Source of the DNA: Methanothrix harundinacea | GTDB lineage: Archaea; Halobacteriota; Methanosarcinia; Methanotrichales; Methanotrichaceae | Assembly: GCA_001509375.1 (NCBI GenBank) | Contig: LGFT01000004.1 | Coordinates: 1 to 57,915 of the forward strand | Reading direction: 5' to 3' | DNA length: 57,915 bases | Shown here: piece after piece, positions 15,845 to 29,689 of the stretch | Layout: every line of letters starts with the position of its first letter | Position numbering within the stretch: position 1 is the first letter of the stretch | Program-made: the position numbers and the translations under genes | Notes under the pieces: model-generated | Told to the model about the DNA's origin: nothing | Database searches by the model: none | What the model saw: the letters and a program-made list of their open reading frames with translations, nothing else

Positions 15845-16873
15845 ATGGCGAAGGTCTTGATCTATGGGGCGGGTTCGATAGGCTCGTTCTTCGGCTACCT
15901 TCTTTCAGAGGTTGTGGTGGGCGATGGTGGAAAGGAAGAGAACCGTACTCCCATCGTCGAGAACGTGGCCCTTCTGGGAAGGAGGGGCCACATCGGGAAG
16001 ATAAGAGAGAAGGGGCTCGAGGTCGCCCTGACTGAAGGAGACATCCCCCTCTCGATCCGCTTCAGATACACCTTCGCCGACCTCGACGAGCTGGCGAGGT
16101 CGGAGTTCGTCCCCGAGGTCGTCGTCGTCACCGTCAAGACCCCTTCTCTAACTGCGATCGCGAAGGAGATCAAGGAGTCTGGCCTCCTCGCGAATAAGCT
16201 CTCTGACGCCTGGTTCGTCCTCTTGATGAACGGGATGGGAAACCGGGAGAGGTTCGACCTCCCCGACGATCGCATCTTTGAGGGAATCACCTCCATCGGC
16301 GTCGTCTTCTCTGGGGAAGGGGGGATCGAGCTGAAGGGGAGGGGAAAGACCGTCTTCGAGGCCGAGATCGGCGAGGATCTGAAAGAGTTCCTCGAGGTCC
16401 GGCTCTCGGAGAAGGGCTTTGTGGCGGAGTTTGCTGTGGACTTCAGGGCCCAGCAGTGGATGAAGCTCTTCGCCAACGCCGTCATAAACCCGATAACTGC
16501 CCTGACCCGGGAGAAGAACGGGATCGTCCTCTCAGAGCACCTGGCGGGCGTCGTGGAGACGATCGTTGGAGAGTGTGTGGCAGTCGCAGAAAAGGAGGGA
16601 CAGAAGTTCGACGAGCGGGAGGTCCTAAAGTTCGTCCGGAACGTCGCCAAAGAGACCTCCGCCAACACCTCCAGCATGCTCCAGGACGTCCTCCGGGGAA
16701 GGTGGACTGAGATCGACTCGATAAACGGCTATATTTTCGACATCGCGGCGAAGCACGACACGAAGGTTTTGGCCAACGAGATGTTGTGCGGACTTGTTAA
16801 GGCGATAGAAACGCGTGAAACAAAGGTGGCAGCCTCAGATCGACTGCCACGAAATGTCAAAGTTAAAGGTTGA
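15845..16873 (+). CDS. panE: 2-dehydropantoate 2-reductase (ketopantoate reductase)
   Basis: 342 residues. The N-terminal dinucleotide fold is VLIYGAGSIGSFFGYLLSE, followed by VVVVTVKTPS, MNGMGN, and the C-terminal helical domain with a Lys-Asn pair region (QWMKLFANAVINPITAL) and NTSSMLQDVLRGRWTEIDSING, all family hallmarks. It reduces ketopantoate to pantoate for coenzyme A synthesis. An insertion of about 15 residues after GYLLSEVVV (Gly/Lys/Glu-rich) lengthens it relative to the usual 300. Its 3' end overlaps the convergent secreted-protein gene by 11 bp. Confidence 0.88.
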   Translation: MAKVLIYGAGSIGSFFGYLLSEVVVGDGGKEENRTPIVENVALLGRRGHIGKIREKGLEVALTEGDIPLSIRFRYTFADLDELARSEFVPEVVVVTVKTPSLTAIAKEIKESGLLANKLSDAWFVLLMNGMGNRERFDLPDDRIFEGITSIGVVFSGEGGIELKGRGKTVFEAEIGEDLKEFLEVRLSEKGFVAEFAVDFRAQQWMKLFANAVINPITALTREKNGIVLSEHLAGVVETIVGECVAVAEKEGQKFDEREVLKFVRNVAKETSANTSSMLQDVLRGRWTEIDSINGYIFDIAAKHDTKVLANEMLCGLVKAIETRETKVAASDRLPRNVKVKG

Positions 16874-17687
16874 GCTTGTAGGTGTAGCCGGTGAGGAACG
16901 TTCCCCGCTCGGAATAGGTCCGTCCTCCGGAAGATATCTCCAGGATATGATACTGGTTTCCGGCGACGTTCAGGCTATAGGTTCCGTCCAAGGGGTCACC
17001 ACCCTGGCCGTCGCCACCGACGTAAGATCCGTCGACGAAGACGCTGTAGCCCCGAAGCCAGCTTGAGCTGAAGATCACCCTCGCAGATCCGGTCGAGGGC
17101 CACGGAGCAGGACTTGGTCCAGGCGCCGGTCCCGGTGATGGGGGCCAGCCGCCGCTTGCGACGTCCACTATGACAACGTTGCTCGGTTGGTTGTTGACGA
17201 CGAAGATCAAAATGTGTCGCCCAACCTCGTCGGCCTCGAAGATGAGCCTGCTGTAACCCGGATAGAAGGAGTAGGACTTGGGAAGAAGCCTGCCATCCGG
17301 ATATATCTCGTAGAAGTCGGCCCTTCCGCCGCTGGAGGAGTAGGCTAGGAGAGATAGGTATGCCCCCAAGGGGCAGACAACTCGCTGAGCCCAGCTCGAT
17401 GATCCCATGATCCAAAGGGAGTTTCCCCCCATGTACGTCGACTGGTAGGATGCATAGGACGTGGACCGATCTGCTAAACGGATCGATGACGGCTCCCGTC
17501 CGGCCGGGTTGTAGCTCTCAACGACGCCGCTAGCTGCCGGAGCCTCCATCGCGAAGAAGTCGGTGAACTCCGCCGCATCCTCAGAGCCGTATTCAAAATC
17601 TTCAGGGGGGTTGATGGAACACACCATCGGAATCCCGGCGACGAGGACGAACAACAGTAGACAGGCAGTCAATCCAACGGGTCTCAT
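16863..17687 (-). CDS. Secreted surface-domain plus PEGA-like protein (copy A)
   Basis: 274 residues from ATG 17687 (GAGGTG upstream). A signal peptide is followed by an acidic stretch and one copy of the surface domain also found at 10718 and 37121: NSLWIMGSSSWAQ, GAYLSLLAYSSSGG, ADFYEIYPDG, FYPGYSRLIFEAD, GRHILIFVVNNQPSNVVIVDV. A Pro/Gly/Ser hinge leads to a PEGA-like C-terminal domain (GYSVFVDGSYVGGDG ... YHILEISSGGRTY). PEGA domains are small surface beta-sandwiches. About 70% of the layout is shared with 37121..38080, so these are paralogues. Molecular role unknown; probably envelope-exposed. Confidence 0.78.
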   Translation of the reverse strand: MRPVGLTACLLLFVLVAGIPMVCSINPPEDFEYGSEDAAEFTDFFAMEAPAASGVVESYNPAGREPSSIRLADRSTSYASYQSTYMGGNSLWIMGSSSWAQRVVCPLGAYLSLLAYSSSGGRADFYEIYPDGRLLPKSYSFYPGYSRLIFEADEVGRHILIFVVNNQPSNVVIVDVASGGWPPSPGPAPGPSPAPWPSTGSARVIFSSSWLRGYSVFVDGSYVGGDGQGGDPLDGTYSLNVAGNQYHILEISSGGRTYSERGTFLTGYTYKLNL

Positions 17688-17714
17688 GGATAACACCTCT
17701 TTAGTTTATGTCTC

Positions 17715-19433: not shown

Positions 19434-19444
19434 ATATTTATATG
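19434..19444 (+). promoter_or_regulatory. TATA box for the first tri-repeat gene
   Basis: ATATTTATATG about 67 bp before ATG 19511, giving a predicted leader of around 40-45 bases. Confidence 0.45.
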
Positions 19445-19510: not shown

Positions 19511-20212
19511 ATGAGAATTCTTCCTTTCAGCAGGATCGCACTATCGATGCTGGTTTTGACCCTGATGGCCTCCTCGGTCTCCTGGGCCCAAGACGAGATG
19601 CAGTATGGATCAAAGGTGAGATGGAACGATGTAGACGAGGGTGGGCCTCTCAGTCCTTTTTATATGGGTCCAGAGTTCGCCTTCTGGGATGGGGGCATTC
19701 GGGGGGTCTTCGATCCTGAGGATCCAGTCTACATAAACATAGATCCCACCGACGATGAGGTCAGCGAGAACGACGTTCGCCTGACCATTTTTGGCGATCT
19801 TCCTGCAGGGTCTCAGGTGGCCAAGGCAGATAACGACGTAGGACAGCCGTTGACGAAGTTCGGAACGGGCACCACTCCAAGGGCAGAGCTGAGGTTCCTG
19901 GACGTGAACGGTGATAGGGCTTACAGCCTAAATGACCCGATTTATCTGAATGTAGTTCCAGGGAAGATAAATTCCGGCGACGTCAGGATCACAAATTATC
20001 AGGGTTATCCTGCGGGAAGCAGAGTGGCGGATTCGGATCTCGATAACGGCCTTCCGACCTCAACCCTTCCGGGAATGCTGAGCTTCTTCAACACCAACGG
20101 AAACATCAACAACGGAGGATACGCCATCTACGATCGAGGGGACATCGTCTACATGGATACCCAGTATCCCTTCTACATGGTGACTATAAACGATGTCAGG
20201 ATGTCCATCTGA
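19511..20212 (+). CDS. Secreted three-repeat protein, paralogue 1
   Basis: 233 residues: a signal peptide (cleavage near SVSWAQ, residue 27) and then three repeats of about 65 residues, starting at YGSKV, AGSQV and AGSRV. Each runs through an Asp-rich segment (for example KADNDVGQPL), a variable core, a loop such as FLDVNGDRAYSLNDPIYLN and a closing D-V-R-(L/I/M). The loop looks like an EF-hand/dockerin-type calcium site (D-x-N-G-D), but the family is not one I can name. No anchor is visible, so it is probably released or held by partners. It is first of three tandem paralogues, with its own promoter. Confidence 0.7.
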   Translation: MRILPFSRIALSMLVLTLMASSVSWAQDEMQYGSKVRWNDVDEGGPLSPFYMGPEFAFWDGGIRGVFDPEDPVYINIDPTDDEVSENDVRLTIFGDLPAGSQVAKADNDVGQPLTKFGTGTTPRAELRFLDVNGDRAYSLNDPIYLNVVPGKINSGDVRITNYQGYPAGSRVADSDLDNGLPTSTLPGMLSFFNTNGNINNGGYAIYDRGDIVYMDTQYPFYMVTINDVRMSI

Positions 20213-20423
20213 ACTTCCATCGACCCCTCGTCTTCCCCTTCTTAGGAGGGCGAGGGAGTTGGGGACAATGGTTTTTCTTGGATCTAGACCCTTTTATGGC
20301 CCGGTGTCAACGATTTAGACGCGCCCGTTTTCCTTTTTGAGGGCTAGATCGAAATTTTTCTCCGATTAAAATCGCCATCAATATCATAGATCCCCTATAT
20401 CTCTCTGAATCCCCAAAAAAGTA

Positions 20424-20432
20424 CTTATAAGA
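20424..20432 (+). promoter_or_regulatory. TATA box for the second tri-repeat gene
   Basis: CTTATAAGA lies about 38-46 bp before TTG 20470, in an AT-rich leader; CTATAAGAAGGGGGG follows closer in and supplies the ribosome site. Confidence 0.5.
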
Positions 20433-20469
20433 TTACGATAGACTGTAACCTATAAGAAGGGGGGTTAAT

Positions 20470-21216
20470 TTGAAGGGATTAACGAAAGTCTGTATGCTGA
20501 CCGGACTGGTTTTAGCCCTTAGCTTGAATGGTGCTTTGGGACAGTTCGGGTCCAAAGTGATGACAGGAGACGCCGACGTCGGTCGTTTTATCGAGGATTT
20601 CCCAGCGCCTTTGAATCCGTCTCTCGGTTACTGGGATACAGGAGCAAATCCTGGAATCTATGACTCTGGCGACACCATTTATCTGGACATTTTGGGAAAT
20701 GGCATCATCGACGCCAATGATATAAGGCTTACCGATTATTATGGATATCCTGCGGGTTCAAAGGTGATATCCTCAGATAACGACATTAATAAGCCTCTGG
20801 TCGCTCTGCCGGGTCAGGCGGCTGGCATTTACTATGCAGACCTCTACGGCAGCCAGGGTTACGACTTCCAGGACCCTGTATACGTTCTGGCGATGACCCC
20901 TGCGGCCCTAGGTGCCAGGACCTCCACCAAAGACGTGCGACTGGGTCCAGTCTGTGGTCTATCTCCTGGGACGAAGGTGCTCGACTACCATCCTGACAAC
21001 GATGGGCCGGCGATTCCCATGATTGTGCCGTTGTCCGCCGGAGGGCCGGTAGCCACCATCAGGTTCTACAACACCAATGGCAACGTGGACGGGAACGGAG
21101 ATCCGATCTACGACTACAGCGACAACGTTTACATAGATGTATCACTTCCCAGCGTTCCGATGGGAGGTTATCCCTTCGGGTTTGTGGTTCCGAACAACAT
21201 CCGACTTTCTGCGTGA
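20470..21216 (+). CDS. Secreted three-repeat protein, paralogue 2
   Basis: 248 residues from TTG 20470, preceded by a GGGGGG ribosome site. The signal peptide ends near ALGQ (residue 25). Three repeats begin FGSKV, AGSKV and PGTKV and end NDIRL, KDVRL and NNIRL. Asp/Asn-rich loops recur, such as YNTNGNVDGNGDPIYDYSD in repeat 3. Same architecture as the neighbours at 19511 and 21254. The next gene starts 37 bp on, so paralogues 2 and 3 are likely one transcript. Confidence 0.7.
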   Translation: MKGLTKVCMLTGLVLALSLNGALGQFGSKVMTGDADVGRFIEDFPAPLNPSLGYWDTGANPGIYDSGDTIYLDILGNGIIDANDIRLTDYYGYPAGSKVISSDNDINKPLVALPGQAAGIYYADLYGSQGYDFQDPVYVLAMTPAALGARTSTKDVRLGPVCGLSPGTKVLDYHPDNDGPAIPMIVPLSAGGPVATIRFYNTNGNVDGNGDPIYDYSDNVYIDVSLPSVPMGGYPFGFVVPNNIRLSA

Positions 21217-21253
21217 TGAGGATTCAACGATCTCAAGATATCTGGAGGATAAC

Positions 21254-22027
21254 ATGACGAATTTGATGAGGGCCTGCGCTCTTGCGGCCCTGGTCTTCTT
21301 TCTCTGCATCGGTGGGACAAGCGGCCAGTTCGGGTACAGGATAACCAACTCTAGTCCAGAGAACGGGATGATCGTCGAGGACTTCGCATCTGCTGGCTCG
21401 GTGACTCAGACACCGGTACAGATGGGGTACTCGGTTGGGGGTGACGATACGGTGTATTTGCACATCGGAGAGGTCGCCATGACCGGCTCGAAGGTAGGGA
21501 TCAACGACATAAGGCTGACAATTTCTCCTTTCGGCCCACCTGGCTCAAAGGTAGGGGTTGTGGATGGAGATCGTGAGAACGATCTGAGGCGGTTTTCGTC
21601 GGGTCTGCCGCGAATTGTCTTCTTGGATGACGGCACCATTATAGGGCAGTTCGATCTGGACGATCCGGTTTACATCAAGGTCGTAACCCCGTTCGATAAG
21701 ATCGGGCCTGGAGACGTCAGGTTGGACTCTCCTGTGGACCTGCCGGGCACGAGGGTATTAGACTTCGATCCGGATAACGGTGCTTCTTGTTCTGTCCTGC
21801 ATTCCGGTCCCAGCTTCAACCTGTGGCTGCCGGGGGCGAGAGGTGTGGTCAGGTTCTACAACGCCAACGGAAACCTCTACGCCAATCCAGGTGCTCTCTT
21901 CGGCACTTGGCCCAGCCCGCCAATTTACGATGCACCTGACGTGGTTTATTTCGACGTATCGAGCCCCACAGCATATCCACGGAACTTCGGCTATCTTACG
22001 CCCAACGCCATACGCATGAGCAATTAG
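21254..22027 (+). CDS. Secreted three-repeat protein, paralogue 3
   Basis: 257 residues from ATG 21254, with GGAGG seven bases upstream. The signal peptide ends near TSGQ (residue 25). Repeats begin FGYRI (most diverged), PGSKV and PGTRV and end NDIRL, GDVRL and NAIRM. Repeat 2 has LDDGTIIGQFDLDDPVYIK, again a possible metal loop. Repeat 3 carries an inserted loop (YANPGALFGTWPSPP). A hairpin terminator follows directly. Function unknown; tandem duplication is evident. Confidence 0.7.
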   Translation: MTNLMRACALAALVFFLCIGGTSGQFGYRITNSSPENGMIVEDFASAGSVTQTPVQMGYSVGGDDTVYLHIGEVAMTGSKVGINDIRLTISPFGPPGSKVGVVDGDRENDLRRFSSGLPRIVFLDDGTIIGQFDLDDPVYIKVVTPFDKIGPGDVRLDSPVDLPGTRVLDFDPDNGASCSVLHSGPSFNLWLPGARGVVRFYNANGNLYANPGALFGTWPSPPIYDAPDVVYFDVSSPTAYPRNFGYLTPNAIRMSN

Positions 22028-22050
22028 AGCGCCGATGGGCGCTTTTTCTT
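22028..22050 (+). terminator. Intrinsic-type terminator after the tri-repeat cluster
   Basis: AGCGCC (22028-22033), loop GATG, GGCGCT (22038-22043), then TTTTTCTT. It starts one base after the stop codon of paralogue 3. Confidence 0.65.
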
Positions 22051-22131
22051 CTATTTTTGCTATGGAATTATTTTTCGCTCGCATCAGTCTCTCGATCGAT
22101 TAAAATACTCCCGGCCCCAACCAACTTATCG

Positions 22132-24070: not shown

Positions 24071-26044
24071 TTGAGATCTCCAAGATGTGCACTACTGGTT
24101 TTTGTCGTGATCACGCTAACTCTGATACCAACAGCTATGGGCCAGACGGAAGCCTCACTGAGTTTCCAGCAGGCTGGAACCTCAAAGGTGCCCTTCAACG
24201 TCAATCAACCTATCGCCTACAAAGTTCACCTGGTCAATGGGATGACCTGCCCCATGCGTTATGTGGTGGAGATGGAAGTCGGGCCCGATTACACCGATTA
24301 TTCTGTTTCAAAAAAGTTTACGTCTGACGTAAGCCTCACGGCCCACTCGTCCCAAGATGTCAATTTTGAAGTTAACTTCAGGTCGCCGGAGATGAGCCGT
24401 GGAGCCTTCGGGTTATGGGCCACCGACGAGAACGATACCAGCATCTGGGAGAGGGGTTGGTACAGAGTGCAGATCGCTCCTCTAGTCGGAGATCAGGTGG
24501 CTTTGGAGGGTTACGACGGCCAGCCCGGTCTGATCAAGATGATCACCGTCTACAAGAACGCCGATGTCTTCCCTAAGATGGGCACCAACGATACCCGTTA
24601 CAGCTATCGTATTGACGTCTTCTCGAGTTCAGAAGACGTAGTGGCTCTTCAGGCAGCTCCAGAGGCGATCGGACCCTGGAGGGACTTGGGAAGCCAGAAC
24701 TACACCAATGTCGGCAATTGGCAGACTTTGAGGTGGGAAAACGTCTCCCTCGACTTCGATTTCATCGGTGCCCACTACAGGTTCGTGGGACGAAAGCAGA
24801 CGGAGAACTTCGAAGGCCCCTTCTGGCCTGTGGATTATGAGTACAAAGACCCCGGCGTAGATCCTGCCGACGGATTCTCTGGGTCGCCCTTCACCTACGT
24901 CCTCGACTTCAATGGCTCAAAGAACCTGGACGTGGGATTGAACATCTGGGACATAGATCAAAACCAGTTCAAGCTCGTCGAGAAGAAGAAGTACAGCAAC
25001 GCCACCTTCTGGCAGAGGATGGTATGGACAGGGGTCATGCCGAGCGAGATGATCGGCTCGGAGGGGGCCAGCTCCTACTATTTCAGCTTCTACTACCCTG
25101 GATCCGAGAGCCCTCTGGGCACCAGTCGGGAGGAGTTGGGGAAGGTGTACCAGGGACCTGAGATCGTCCTGGTAAAGTATGAGAACGCTTCCGTCTCTCC
25201 GGAGAGGGGCGGCACTGTAGCTAGGTATACATACTCTGTAGATGTCAGCACTGCCCTTCCCGTCTGCGACATCGAGCTTCAGACGAGCGAGCCGGGTTCC
25301 TCCCTCTGGAGGTCTCGGGGGATCGCCACATACAACGGCGACCCAAAAATCTGCTGGAAGGATGTATCTTTCGATGGTGACGTCGCCGGCAACGTAAGCT
25401 ATCGGTTCATACGGGCGGCTTCTCCCCCTACAGTTTACCAGGGGCCAAAGCTCATCAAAGAATCGATAACGGGAACGGTAATGCCCCGAAGGGGTGTTAT
25501 GCAGATCTTCCCTGATAATAACAACCTCAACAGGTACGTTTACACGATTCAAATTGAAAACCTTGGGAATGATTCTGAGGATGTGGGGGGGGTTTGGGTT
25601 GAGCTCCTGGTCAAGGCGCCCAACTCCGTCTGGAAGACTGTGGGCGAAAGAAAACAGTACGCTTCTTCAAATGGGAATGTATCCTGGGTGATCAAGCCTT
25701 TTATAGACGTTGAGTTTCTCGGATCTGCGGAATACAAGTTCCTGATCAACGGCGTCGATACCGAGATATTCCGGGGACCTGAGATCGTGGCCATGTACAA
25801 AAACCTCGATTATGAGGACGTCAGTCCTGGTCGCTATAACTACGTTGCCTGGGTGAACGGAAGCGTCAACTTGACCGCCGACCTGATCCACTCCACCGAC
25901 AACGAGAACTGGAAGAATTTGGAGGATTGGAAAGGCTACACAGCGGGATCGGGATGGCAGAAGTTAATCTGGAATAACAAACCCGGATACAGGTTCTACG
26001 AGGTCGATATCAAATTCGGAGAAGAGGCGGGGCCCAAGGCATGA
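24071..26044 (+). CDS. Large secreted protein with five beta-rich repeats
   Basis: 657 residues from TTG 24071 with a signal peptide ending near TAMGQ. After an N-terminal domain of about 140 residues come roughly five repeats of 85-110 residues, each with a Y-x-Y strand, a W-x3-G-x3-Y section, a W-x-D/N-V strand and a closing YRF...F-x-GP-x-I (for example EGPFW, YQGPEI, YQGPKL, FRGPEI). Many N-x-S/T sequons suggest N-glycosylation outside the cell. It has no anchor. It overlaps the next gene by ATGA, so it heads the operon that includes the FtsZ-like GTPase. A run of eight G lies at 25585-25592. Not a family I can name. Confidence 0.7.
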   Translation: MRSPRCALLVFVVITLTLIPTAMGQTEASLSFQQAGTSKVPFNVNQPIAYKVHLVNGMTCPMRYVVEMEVGPDYTDYSVSKKFTSDVSLTAHSSQDVNFEVNFRSPEMSRGAFGLWATDENDTSIWERGWYRVQIAPLVGDQVALEGYDGQPGLIKMITVYKNADVFPKMGTNDTRYSYRIDVFSSSEDVVALQAAPEAIGPWRDLGSQNYTNVGNWQTLRWENVSLDFDFIGAHYRFVGRKQTENFEGPFWPVDYEYKDPGVDPADGFSGSPFTYVLDFNGSKNLDVGLNIWDIDQNQFKLVEKKKYSNATFWQRMVWTGVMPSEMIGSEGASSYYFSFYYPGSESPLGTSREELGKVYQGPEIVLVKYENASVSPERGGTVARYTYSVDVSTALPVCDIELQTSEPGSSLWRSRGIATYNGDPKICWKDVSFDGDVAGNVSYRFIRAASPPTVYQGPKLIKESITGTVMPRRGVMQIFPDNNNLNRYVYTIQIENLGNDSEDVGGVWVELLVKAPNSVWKTVGERKQYASSNGNVSWVIKPFIDVEFLGSAEYKFLINGVDTEIFRGPEIVAMYKNLDYEDVSPGRYNYVAWVNGSVNLTADLIHSTDNENWKNLEDWKGYTAGSGWQKLIWNNKPGYRFYEVDIKFGEEAGPKA

Positions 26045-27468
26045 AGAGAAGGTCTATAGCAATATTTCTGCTAATTTTCTTCTACCTTCTGGGATCTGTC
26101 CAGGCTGCCGAGGGTCCGGGAGGGCCGAGTGGGTCTTCGGGCGGCGGTGGCGAGTCCAGCAGCTCCAGCGGTGGCAGGAAGATAGTCAAGCTGGATCTGG
26201 AGGATTTGATCGGAAACCTTGAGAAGTGGAAGCAAGACGACCCTTCCAATTATGAGTACCTTAAAAAGCTTCTCCACATACCCTTCGTCCCGCCCAAGGA
26301 TTACGCAGCTCCCACCGTTTATCTTTGGTACCCTTCAGGCAAGACCAATATCACGAGAAACGATAAGCTTGACATATACGCCTATGTAAAGAACGACAAC
26401 CCCATCGAGGTTCGTTCGGACGTTTACCTCTGGCTGGAGGCTAAGGGTCCCGGCGAGGAGGAATTTACGAGGGTTGGATCTCAGAGGGTGATCCTCGCCA
26501 ACGAGTACTCAGAAAAAAATAACGTCACCACCAGGGACTGGTCTGGCATGACCCCCTTCGTCGATTCAAAGGCTATAGGAAATGCTACCTTCCGCATATG
26601 GTTCAACGACATGCATAGCACCTACTACACCGACACCATGTACTCTAACCCCTATAATCGGGGCGAATACCACAGCCTCCTCGAGCTGGACTTGGTCAAC
26701 AGCCCTCCCGAAGTTGACGAGGGAAGCATCGGGGTCGAGCCGGCCAGGGCCAGGTACAACGATCCTATCCGGTACCTATCCAGGTTTGTCGACACCGATG
26801 GGGACATGATCAACGTTACCATCCACGTCCTCGACGACCAGAAGGGGGAATTGAGGAACGAGACCCAATACGTGAAATCTGGAACGAACGTCACCTTCAT
26901 CGCCAGCGAGTATGGTTTCTTTGGAGAGGGGGATGCGGGAAAGAACTTCTCTTACCGCTACACCTACGGCGACGGCCTCAACAGCATTATCACGGAGATC
27001 TTCCCCGGGCCCACCCTTCTGCCGAGCCCCAAGATATTCGTCTCGGACCCCCATGTTGAGGCCGCAGACGAGAACCGATACTGGTGGCAGAACTACAGGT
27101 TCAGCCTAAAGGCGAAGAACCCGGAGATGAATAACCTCAGAATAGACCTTTACACCAGCACGCCGTCTCATCCCAACAGATATCAGGATACGAGGGTTAT
27201 AAATTCCTCAGATGAGGCGCAGGACGTCCTCTTCGACATCAAACCCTTCGACGTCTCTGACGCAAACGAGAGCTTCACCTACAGCTTCAAATACTCGGCG
27301 ACGGACCAGAACTCTCGAGAGGAAACCGGCGACTTATCTGGTGGCAGCATCAACCCGAAGATCGTCAGGTATCCGATATACTCGATGGTGACTATCGGAA
27401 ACCTTCTCGCCGTCATCCTGGCGGCGCTGGTGGGCGGGATCGTGATAGAGAGGAGGCTATACCAATGA
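26041..27468 (+). CDS. Secreted beta-rich protein with C-terminal membrane anchor
   Basis: 475 residues: signal peptide (to about VQAAEG), a Gly/Ser-rich linker, a coiled segment (LEDLIGNLEKWKQDD), several Ig-like domains (TVYLWYPSGKTNITRNDKL; SPPEVDEGSIGVEPARARYND; DGDMINVTIHVLDD) and a single membrane helix at about 449-469 followed by a short basic tail (IERRLYQ). So the bulk is outside and a few residues face the cytoplasm. Sequons are frequent. ATGA overlaps at both ends couple it to the upstream secreted repeat protein and the downstream polytopic protein; it may anchor the former. Confidence 0.72.
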   Translation: MKRRSIAIFLLIFFYLLGSVQAAEGPGGPSGSSGGGGESSSSSGGRKIVKLDLEDLIGNLEKWKQDDPSNYEYLKKLLHIPFVPPKDYAAPTVYLWYPSGKTNITRNDKLDIYAYVKNDNPIEVRSDVYLWLEAKGPGEEEFTRVGSQRVILANEYSEKNNVTTRDWSGMTPFVDSKAIGNATFRIWFNDMHSTYYTDTMYSNPYNRGEYHSLLELDLVNSPPEVDEGSIGVEPARARYNDPIRYLSRFVDTDGDMINVTIHVLDDQKGELRNETQYVKSGTNVTFIASEYGFFGEGDAGKNFSYRYTYGDGLNSIITEIFPGPTLLPSPKIFVSDPHVEAADENRYWWQNYRFSLKAKNPEMNNLRIDLYTSTPSHPNRYQDTRVINSSDEAQDVLFDIKPFDVSDANESFTYSFKYSATDQNSREETGDLSGGSINPKIVRYPIYSMVTIGNLLAVILAALVGGIVIERRLYQ

Positions 27469-28154
27469 ACGGCCTGAACGAGACGGTGGCGAGCGCCCAG
27501 GCCGTCGATATATCGTCACCTTCAGGCCTGGTGCCCGAGGGGCTGACGAGCTTTCTTGCCGACGTATATTCCAACGGCCTTCTGGGCCTTGGGCTCTTCC
27601 TCCTCCTGTTGGCCCTGGGCCTCGCGCTTCACGGGCTGAACATGAAAAGGACCTATGAGAGGGTGGCGGCCACCACCAACGGCGGCGAGGTCTCTCGAGA
27701 CGATCTTCGTGAGGAGATGTTCGTCCGTCAGGGCTCAAACTTCAACGCAGCCGCCGTCACAGGCTGGCTGCTCCTCTTTGTGGCCTTGAGCTACTTCTAC
27801 TTCCTGACGCCTGAGATCTTCCCCCGATACAACTACTACCAAGTCCCGACCCTGGCTTCGGGACCCCTGGGGTTTTTTGCCTTCGGGTTCGTCGTCCTCC
27901 TTTTGGCCCTCGGAGCTGCCGCTTTCGTTCCGAGGGAATTTTACGGCTACTATGAGCTCTCGAGACGGATGAAGGTCGCCATCATGCTCACAGGGCCAGT
28001 GCTGGCGATCTCCATCCTTCTATCCGTCCAGCAGGGGACGACATTTCCTCAGGTCGAGCCGGCCTCGAGACTTCTCGCCTTTCTGGCCCTCTTCGCCTCG
28101 GAGCTGGCGCTGCTCTGGCCGATATATGCCGAGGCCCTGGGAGGGATGAGATGA
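27465..28154 (+). CDS. Polytopic membrane protein of the FtsZ-like operon
   Basis: 229 residues with about five helices (37-57, 96-115, 133-154, 171-188, 202-221). A cytoplasmic or external loop of about 40 charged residues lies between helices 1 and 2 (KRTYERVAATTNGGEVSRDD). No known transporter or enzyme motif is visible. It overlaps both neighbours by four bases (ATGA), the downstream one being the FtsZ/tubulin-like GTPase, so a role as its membrane partner is a reasonable inference. Confidence 0.68.
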   Translation: MNGLNETVASAQAVDISSPSGLVPEGLTSFLADVYSNGLLGLGLFLLLLALGLALHGLNMKRTYERVAATTNGGEVSRDDLREEMFVRQGSNFNAAAVTGWLLLFVALSYFYFLTPEIFPRYNYYQVPTLASGPLGFFAFGFVVLLLALGAAAFVPREFYGYYELSRRMKVAIMLTGPVLAISILLSVQQGTTFPQVEPASRLLAFLALFASELALLWPIYAEALGGMR

Positions 28155-29689
28155 AACTTTGTATCGTCGGAATCGGTGGGTGTGGAGGTCATCTGGCGGA
28201 ACGCTTTCTCAATAACCAGGATATATCTTTGCTTAAGAAGTCCCTGGGGGAGCACGTCTCCTTCGGAGGCGTCAAGGGCCTGTGGCTCGAGGCCGACGTT
28301 CAGGAGACGGAGAATCAGGACTTCTTCGGCCCCCTGGAGAGGGGATGCTATCCCGGCTTTTTCGTCCCCCACGACGTCATAGGCTCTGAATCGAAGACCT
28401 CGAAGCTGATCGTCGATCGTTACGGCTATGACGTCAAGAAACAGGGATTCATGAGACAGGCAGAATTTTTGAAGGCTGTCTTCGAGATCTTCGAGAGCGA
28501 CGAGGACGTAAAGCGGACCGCCCTCTCGGAGCACGAGTCTGAAAACCCGATCCTCAGAGCCGCCTGGGACCGGATACGCCCCTACACCACTCTCACGGGC
28601 CCCAGGGATAACAACAACGGGTCAGAGATGTGCGACGGGATCCTCTTTCTAGTCTCCTTCGGCGGCGGGACGGGGACCGGCTTTGTAAACCCCATCACCA
28701 GGTACATCAGGAGCGAGAGGCCTGCCTATCCCGTCTTCGTGCTGGGGGTGCTCACCGAGGAGGGGACCGACCCCCAGCAGAGGGCGAAGGAGGCGAAGAG
28801 GGACCTGGGAGCCACCATCTCCCTCTACGATCTTTTGACCAAGAGGGTCGGGGTGGGGGTGGACGGGGTGATCGTTATCGACAACCAGATCATGGTGGAG
28901 AAGTTCGGCCAGAACTACCCCGCCATCGACGACTACATCCACCAGGCCATGAAGCCTTTCGTTGCCGCACGCCACTATCCCGGGGAGGACCCGCCGAGCC
29001 TCGCCATGAGGGAGAAGTTCATTGAGGGGCTCGACCACCCGCCCATCCTCGTCCCCTGCTACTTCCGGGATAGGAGGAGAAAGGACCCCGAGGAGAACCT
29101 GGTCAAAAAGGCCCTCTCTGAGGGTATGCTCTTCGGGTGTGATCCCGCCATGGCCGAGAGGGCCTACGTCTTCACCAGGGGTTTTGTGGGCCTCGACAAG
29201 ATCCTGGGGGCGGTGGCGCGGCAGACCGGCCTTGCCGAAGATCGGATCGAGCCCTGGAGGAAGCTCGGGGAGAACCACGCCGACGAGATCCTGATCCTCC
29301 TGCGAAACCCCTATGGGGAGGAAAGAGGGTGCGAGGTTAAGGGAAACCTAGAATATCGGATTCACAGGGTGATCAGGATGGCTCTCAGGTACATGGACGA
29401 TCCCGAGAGCAATTTGATCCCCGATGGGATGCCGGATCTGACGAAAACGTCCCTGGAGGACTACTTCTACGGGGACGACGGGGTCCGGGGCCGGCTGAAG
29501 GTGGGTCTCCAAAGGATCGAGGAGGGAAAGACGCCCTTCTTCCTCGATGAGAGGAGGATCTTCGAGAGGTCGAACTTGAACTCCGGCGTCCTCGAGCCTC
29601 ATCGGGGCGGCAGGAAGGTCGACGACGAGGAGATCCGAAGGCTCGTGGAGGGAGAGGTGAAGAGGGTCCTCGCCGAACGGGGGCTCTGA
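28151..29689 (+). CDS. Divergent FtsZ/tubulin-superfamily GTPase
   Basis: 512 residues, no membrane segment. The N-terminal strand and loop KLCIVGIGGCGGHLAERF is in the position of the FtsZ T1 loop; the tubulin signature GGGTGTG is at 171-177 in LVSFGGGTGTGFVNP; the following PVFVLGVLTEEGTD and DGVIVIDNQ match the strand order of FtsZ after T4, and NYPAIDDYIHQAMKPF may hold the T7 region. It is longer than FtsZ (about 360) with an insert between T1 and T4 and a C-terminal extension of about 150 residues. It lacks the ordinary FtsZ tail. Comparative work has proposed FtsZ-like families tied to membrane remodelling (FtsZl types), and this could be one. Here it is coupled to membrane and exported proteins. 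Polymerisation is inferred only. Confidence 0.8.
   Translation: MKLCIVGIGGCGGHLAERFLNNQDISLLKKSLGEHVSFGGVKGLWLEADVQETENQDFFGPLERGCYPGFFVPHDVIGSESKTSKLIVDRYGYDVKKQGFMRQAEFLKAVFEIFESDEDVKRTALSEHESENPILRAAWDRIRPYTTLTGPRDNNNGSEMCDGILFLVSFGGGTGTGFVNPITRYIRSERPAYPVFVLGVLTEEGTDPQQRAKEAKRDLGATISLYDLLTKRVGVGVDGVIVIDNQIMVEKFGQNYPAIDDYIHQAMKPFVAARHYPGEDPPSLAMREKFIEGLDHPPILVPCYFRDRRRKDPEENLVKKALSEGMLFGCDPAMAERAYVFTRGFVGLDKILGAVARQTGLAEDRIEPWRKLGENHADEILILLRNPYGEERGCEVKGNLEYRIHRVIRMALRYMDDPESNLIPDGMPDLTKTSLEDYFYGDDGVRGRLKVGLQRIEEGKTPFFLDERRIFERSNLNSGVLEPHRGGRKVDDEEIRRLVEGEVKRVLAERGL

Follow-up and report, generated by a model that had tools for sequence, protein, structure and literature searches.

Three consecutive genes of Methanothrix harundinacea, referred to here as g1, g2 and g3, encode members of an uncharacterised secreted domain family that is widespread in one class of methanogens and has a fixed three-unit architecture. 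The genes lie on the + strand of a 2.38 Mb genome, within a stretch of 57,915 nucleotides that is called the window below. The reading we favour, and to which we give about an even chance, is that these proteins are exported to the cell envelope or the extracellular matrix and form a module there that is stabilised by calcium.

Gene Cluster and Transcriptional Layout

The original prediction, made from the letters of the window, described three neighbouring paralogues, each with a signal peptide. Both points were borne out, as the three open reading frames match one another in pairwise BLAST comparisons at E values of 1e-22 to 1e-34, and a Sec-type signal peptide can be read at the start of each protein. 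The features of the cluster are as follows; the TATA-like elements and the hairpin were read by eye and are putative.

19434-19444, + strand: TATA-like element atatttatatg, 5' of g1
19511-20212, + strand: g1, 233 aa, signal peptide and three units
19511-19588, + strand: g1 signal peptide MRILPFSRIALSMLVLTLMASSVSWA, read from sequence
19607-19807, + strand: g1 unit 1
19808-20014, + strand: g1 unit 2
20015-20209, + strand: g1 unit 3
20424-20431, + strand: TATA-like element cttataag, 5' of g2
20470-21216, + strand: g2, 248 aa, TTG start, GGGGGG Shine-Dalgarno, signal peptide and three units
20548-20754, + strand: g2 unit 1
20755-20967, + strand: g2 unit 2
20968-21213, + strand: g2 unit 3, insert-bearing
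21254-22027, + strand: g3, 257 aa, signal peptide and three units
21332-21541, + strand: g3 unit 1, Asp loop deleted
21542-21745, + strand: g3 unit 2
21746-22024, + strand: g3 unit 3, with a long insert
22029-22059, + strand: terminator-like hairpin GCGCC-GAT-GGGCGC with T-runs, 1 nt past the g3 stop

The listing of open reading frames placed the start of g3 mechanically at 21137; the true start is probably the ATG at 21254, which is preceded by a GGAGGA Shine-Dalgarno sequence at 21244-21249. Since a TATA-like element stands 5' of g2, the g2-g3 pair is probably a separate transcription unit. Taken together, the TATA-like elements, the spacing of only 37 bases between g2 and g3 and the hairpin after g3 suggest that g1 is probably transcribed alone and g2 and g3 jointly. 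The next gene 3' of g3 encodes ribonuclease HII (PF01351).

The Three-Unit Repeat and Its Architectures

Each mature protein consists of three units and nothing more, the first beginning almost directly after the signal peptide, and a unit HMM finds all nine (9/9). As an independent check that the units are homologous, a profile was built from unit 1, unit 2 or unit 3 only of 59 proteins and run against the other two positions; these profiles recovered 117/118, 112/118 and 116/118 units elsewhere at E<1e-3 (345/354 in total), and at that threshold no shuffled sequence passed out of 2,360 per test. The predicted count of three units per protein, nine in all, is upheld; the units, predicted at about 65 residues, range from 65 to 93 residues.

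The family consensus unit is GSKVKDGDPDIGKPLSPLPSAGAEIRFLDANGNGIYDLGDPVYLDISPPDGTVSANDVRLTDVGGLPA. It runs from GSKV through a DxD turn, a beta-strand, an Asp/Asn loop and another beta-strand (VYL) to a second short Asp loop (GxVxxND) and a closing VRL. The best-conserved columns are G1 (98%), V4 (94%), the second D of DxD (94%), the Tyr of VY (99%), loop Asp9 (84%), loop Asp12 (99%) and the Arg of DVRL (94%). The list of motifs in the original prediction is correct apart from some deviations: g1 unit 2 (GSQV) and g3 unit 1 (GYRI) have degenerate forms of G-(S/T)-(K/R)-V, unit 3 of both g2 and g3 has N or A where the closing D would stand, and the loops are mostly degenerate.

The unit number is fixed among the 73 Methanotrichaceae open reading frames recovered (some loci having been fetched twice, from two collections): 72 have exactly three units, and the lone exception is a two-unit frame at a contig end. 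In a second family, belonging to the same class, most of the proteins measure 700-850 aa and the trio itself occurs in triplicate (3x3). L077 has nine units in three clean trios whose thirds match mutually at E values of 1e-25 to 1e-43; L078 (752 aa) is organised likewise, although some of its units are eroded, and across L077 and L078 the thirds match at 1e-14 to 1e-43. The fixed number of three in Methanotrichaceae and the 3x3 arrangement in the second family mean that the domain is the trio, of about 200-230 residues. The 3 and 3x3 architectures offer a clean case of nested repeat evolution.

Several relatives possess a fourth paralogue that ends in an SdrD B-like domain (PF17210; L039:9802-10938, E 1.7e-22; L007:9768-10904, E 6.2e-20), fused to the three-unit module and separate from the unit itself. 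The cluster in the window genome has no such fourth gene, and ribonuclease HII follows directly after g3. In some relatives (L073, L076, L057, L069 and L072; proteins of 355-483 aa) units 2 and 3 are separated by long inserts, of some 110-250 residues. In L076:8396-9790 the insert is a Cys-rich low-complexity stretch with repeated KCDDRC-like motifs.

Aspartate Loops and the Case for Calcium

In its full form the loop reads D1-x-N3-G-N5-G-x-Y8-D9-x-x-D12 (DxNGNGxYDxxD), a pattern of residues that fits the EF-type ligand rule described in PMC3123361, where such loops are also reported between strands in non-EF folds. The likeness of this full form to the Dx[DN]xDG loops (Rigden et al. 2011, PMC3123361) extends to Asp/Asn at positions 1, 3 and 5, a hydrophobic residue at 8, an acidic or polar residue at 9 and Asp at 12, as well as to an extracellular setting and a location between two beta-strands, both predicted in the present case. 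Differences also exist: none of the described contexts matched this domain, and many copies here are degenerate.

Near-perfect loops occur in L078, with DINDNGQYDLYD and DRNDNGMFDSED as first loops and DMDNDGKVSVGD and DMDDNGEVSDGD as second loops, DINDNGQYDLYD and DMDNDGKVSVGD being 12-residue examples. Across 62 family proteins the strict EF-loop pattern was counted 21 times, against 0.05 in within-protein shuffles (maximum 1), a figure that measures the pattern and not separate events, because homologous sequences are not independent. Among proteins with three units, a minority of units keep all of positions 1, 3 and 5 at 12-residue spacing (3/59 first units, 15/59 second units and 14/59 third units), and a [DN]x[DN] loop start, often with an insert, is found in 53/59 third units. 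On this basis, each Methanothrix protein may reasonably be supposed to have one or two candidate calcium sites. Within the window proteins themselves, most loops lack residue 1, 3 or 5: strict D-x-N-G is seen in g1 unit 2 only, N-x-N-G takes its place in the third units, the others are degenerate and g3 unit 1 has lost its loop altogether.

These many incomplete ligand sets, along with the acidic composition of the family (D 10.9%, E 2.7%, K+R 6.9%), would suit a purely structural envelope protein whose Asp loops merely make the surface acidic and hydrated, with no specific metal site. We regard this as unlikely, since the near-invariance of loop Asp12 (99%), the frequent Asp9 (84%) and the complete EF-like loops of the second family show more specificity than acidity in general would require. 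A calcium role for the family is probable, judging from its sequences.

Beside these loops, L078:7463-9718 shows a tail after its units (residues about 695-752) with an EF-hand-like segment, FDADQNGVISAGELSSAIDAFY, which matches Pfam below threshold (E 9e-4). This C-terminal tail is possibly an attachment module.

Predicted Structure

Structure prediction, one of the checks proposed at the outset, was run with AlphaFold2 on shallow alignments of 16 sequences drawn from the window and four fetched loci only, and only two of the five models per job were good. The resulting models are all-beta, with pLDDT 89.5 and pTM 0.88 for g1 and pLDDT 83 and pTM 0.85 for g2; by DSSP, the g1 model is free of helices and the g2 model has none that reaches 4 residues. 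In both, short strands are repeated three times. The loops of the g1 model, numbered on the mature protein from the Q at window position 19601, are placed as follows.

19688-19723, + strand: g1 unit 1, 12-residue Asp loop DGGIRGVFDPED (D30-D41), between predicted strands EFAFW (25-29) and VYIN (43-46)
19901-19936, + strand: g1 unit 2, EF-loop-like DVNGDRAYSLND (D101-D112), between predicted strands ELRF (96-99) and IYLN (114-117)
20090-20143, + strand: g1 unit 3, extended loop NTNGNINNGGYAIYDRGD (N164-D181), between predicted strands 159-163 and 182-186

The strand-loop-strand arrangement is thus present in 3/3 units of the g1 model, and in the unit 2 loop (DVNGDRAYSLND) ligand positions 1, 3, 5, 9 and 12 all carry a suitable residue. 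With fair confidence, the models indicate an all-beta fold in which the loop sits between two strands.

A Foldseek search of the PDB gave no significant match to any fold (best E 0.5 for g2 and 0.56 for g1); re-examination with VIA-align gave a single chain at Z 2.0 for g2, whereas no chain reached Z 2 for g1, and the best Foldseek match among viral models had E 1.6. The lack of a PDB fold match is not proof of a new fold. For structural biology, the trio is a candidate for a new domain, one whose models are fairly confident and find no PDB match.

A three-fold all-beta domain also brings to mind a lectin-like carbohydrate-binding module of pseudo-three-fold symmetry, in which the Asp loops would hold calcium or sugar and the protein would stick cells to the glycans of partners or to their own glycoprotein coat. 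Jacalin-type lectins, which are three-fold beta proteins, do recur low in the g1 Foldseek list, and the diversification of the paralogues and the variation in loop length would fit varied ligands. However, these jacalin matches are non-significant (E 2-7, TM about 0.2), VIA-align retrieved none at Z of at least 2 and Pfam lectin families yielded 0 matches; we regard this alternative, too, as unlikely.

Distribution and Evolutionary History

The distribution search, which had also been proposed, used the unit profile (alignment A1), and it places homologues well beyond the source genome. Matches were found in 39/50 Methanotrichaceae genomes (27/33 among the better ones) and in 18/112 genomes of the second family, which, inferred from kinship, is probably Methanosarcinaceae. 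Outside these two families, no unit-profile match was found among 393 genomes drawn from the phylum. As seen among the genomes of the phylum, the family therefore appears confined to one class. With g2 as the query, a match was obtained in 32/61 relatives, and the 752-aa relative L078 as the query gave 0 matches in plasmids.

Units at the same position across proteins share a mean identity of 41%, against 29% for neighbours within a protein, and the nearest neighbour shares the unit position in 176/177 units. This greater likeness by position implies that triplication preceded the paralogues, which would descend from one three-unit ancestor older than themselves. In a quick tree, the clade that holds g1 spans eight genera (support 0.999), g2 belongs to another group of several genera (support 0.80), and g3 is united with the fourth gene in a genus-specific clade (support 1.0). 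The distribution marks the family as old, and g1 belongs to its oldest, cross-genus paralogue clade.

The pattern of presence and absence bears on a possible role as an accessory part of the Methanothrix sheath, for instance as spacer plug, hoop linker or lining. The family is present in the sheathed Methanotrichaceae, and PMC11576556 describes the proteins that plug and assemble the sheath as unknown. The sheath proteins SH and MspA (PMC11576556, PMC6242892) are likewise secreted beta proteins of the same organisms, encoded in gene clusters. The SH core is made of two six-stranded (antiparallel) sheets, the present family of three units. SH occurs in all Methanotrichales (PMC11576556), whereas the present family is patchy, its 39/50 Methanotrichaceae genomes leaving 11/50 with no match, the near-complete G022, G024, G010 and G020 included. 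Its relatives in the second family, moreover, probably belong to Methanosarcinaceae, which is not one of the sheath-bearing groups listed in PMC11576556. Because several near-complete relatives do without the family, an essential or obligatory sheath component is unlikely, and we hold even an accessory role to be improbable.

Comparison with Known Families and Systems

The family had been predicted to match none that could be named, and this proved to be the case in the libraries searched. Searches of Pfam and NCBIfam with whole proteins and 53 units gave nothing above cut-off inside the units, and the PDB searched by sequence returned unrelated proteins (the lowest E was 0.61 for a single protein as query and 1.1 for the unit profile). 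The suggested resemblance to dockerin or EF-hand loops survives at the level of the loop, which is Dx[DN]xDG-like, and fails at the level of family membership.

Several candidates were considered, and none was supported. Dockerin_1 (PF00404) matched 1/53 units, at E 0.039, and no whole protein, with none at gathering score; EF-hand families (PF13499, PF13202, PF13405 and PF00036) gave only sub-threshold matches, mainly in the L078 tail outside the units, and no helix flanks the loops. A dockerin loop-helix (F-hand) pair was discarded, as the model has a strand after the loop. An FG-GAP/VCBS calcium-blade propeller found no Pfam match at E<=1 in the 53 units or in the proteins and no significant Foldseek match, although a fold missing from the Foldseek list is not thereby excluded.

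A dockerin or EF-hand pair is accordingly very improbable: the comparable 12-residue loop pattern, the single Dockerin_1 unit and the sub-threshold L078 tail speak for it, but no unit reaches the gathering score, the second loop of L077 and L078 follows about four residues on, and the predicted strands flanking the loop, in place of helices, suggest that the domain is neither.

The best functional analogy is offered by CanA of Pyrodictium abyssi, which polymerises when it binds divalent ions (PMC12326000). Like the proteins described here, the cannulae protein CanA is small, secreted, mainly beta, archaeal and accompanied by paralogues. The parallel is functional only, an analogy and not homology; CanA is a single jelly roll with no DxDxDG motifs and no repeat (PMC12326000).

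Functional Interpretation

Under the preferred reading of a secreted, calcium-stabilised module, g1-g3 would be small exported proteins whose whole mature chain forms one three-unit all-beta domain. Some of the loops would bind calcium as Dx[DN]xDG loops do, so that the domain may be locked rigid at extracellular calcium levels. The proteins would then remain outside the cell membrane, either soluble or as structural or adhesive modules associated with the envelope or matrix, and some modules of the family would be joined to the SdrD B-like stalk domain. No anchor or enzymatic domain was found in g1-g3 by sequence, Pfam or NCBIfam; with no anchor of their own, the family proteins would be held in place by protein-protein contacts. 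The signal peptide, the lack of an anchor or catalytic domain, the tandem paralogues, the adhesin-stalk-type fusion and the acidity suggest that the proteins act outside the cell, in structure or adhesion. A search of the main texts of the literature found no expression or proteome record of g1-g3; two papers that name loci in the presumed locus-tag ranges concern other genes.

Methanothrix is a dominant acetate-using methanogen and a filament former in anaerobic granules, and calcium addition has long been used to promote granulation. To our knowledge, what binds Methanothrix filaments outside the sheath is poorly known. A secreted, conserved and probably calcium-binding module is a concrete protein to test. 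A more ambitious version of this proposal, which we consider unlikely as a whole, would see in the family an undescribed all-beta fold of three pseudo-symmetric units with calcium loops, serving as a calcium-switched matrix building block in members of the Methanosarcinia that, in Methanothrix, links calcium to filament bundling and granule formation.

Genomic Neighbourhood

Further along the + strand, 3' of the genes for ribonuclease HII and a class V aminotransferase, a tightly spaced gene run occupies window positions 24071-29689.

24071-26044 and 26041-27468, + strand: two large secreted or membrane proteins with no significant Pfam match
27465-28154, + strand: membrane protein
28151-29689, + strand: tubulin/FtsZ-superfamily GTPase (PF00091, E 1.4e-8)

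The overlapping gene ends suggest a single operon in which a tubulin-like protein is encoded together with surface proteins. The secreted pair at 24071-26044 and 26041-27468 also adjoins the three-unit family in the genera designated g9 and g10. On the other side of the cluster, the - strand at 16863-17696 encodes another secreted protein, which has a proline/glycine-rich linker, matches nothing in Pfam and is kept near the cluster in several relatives.
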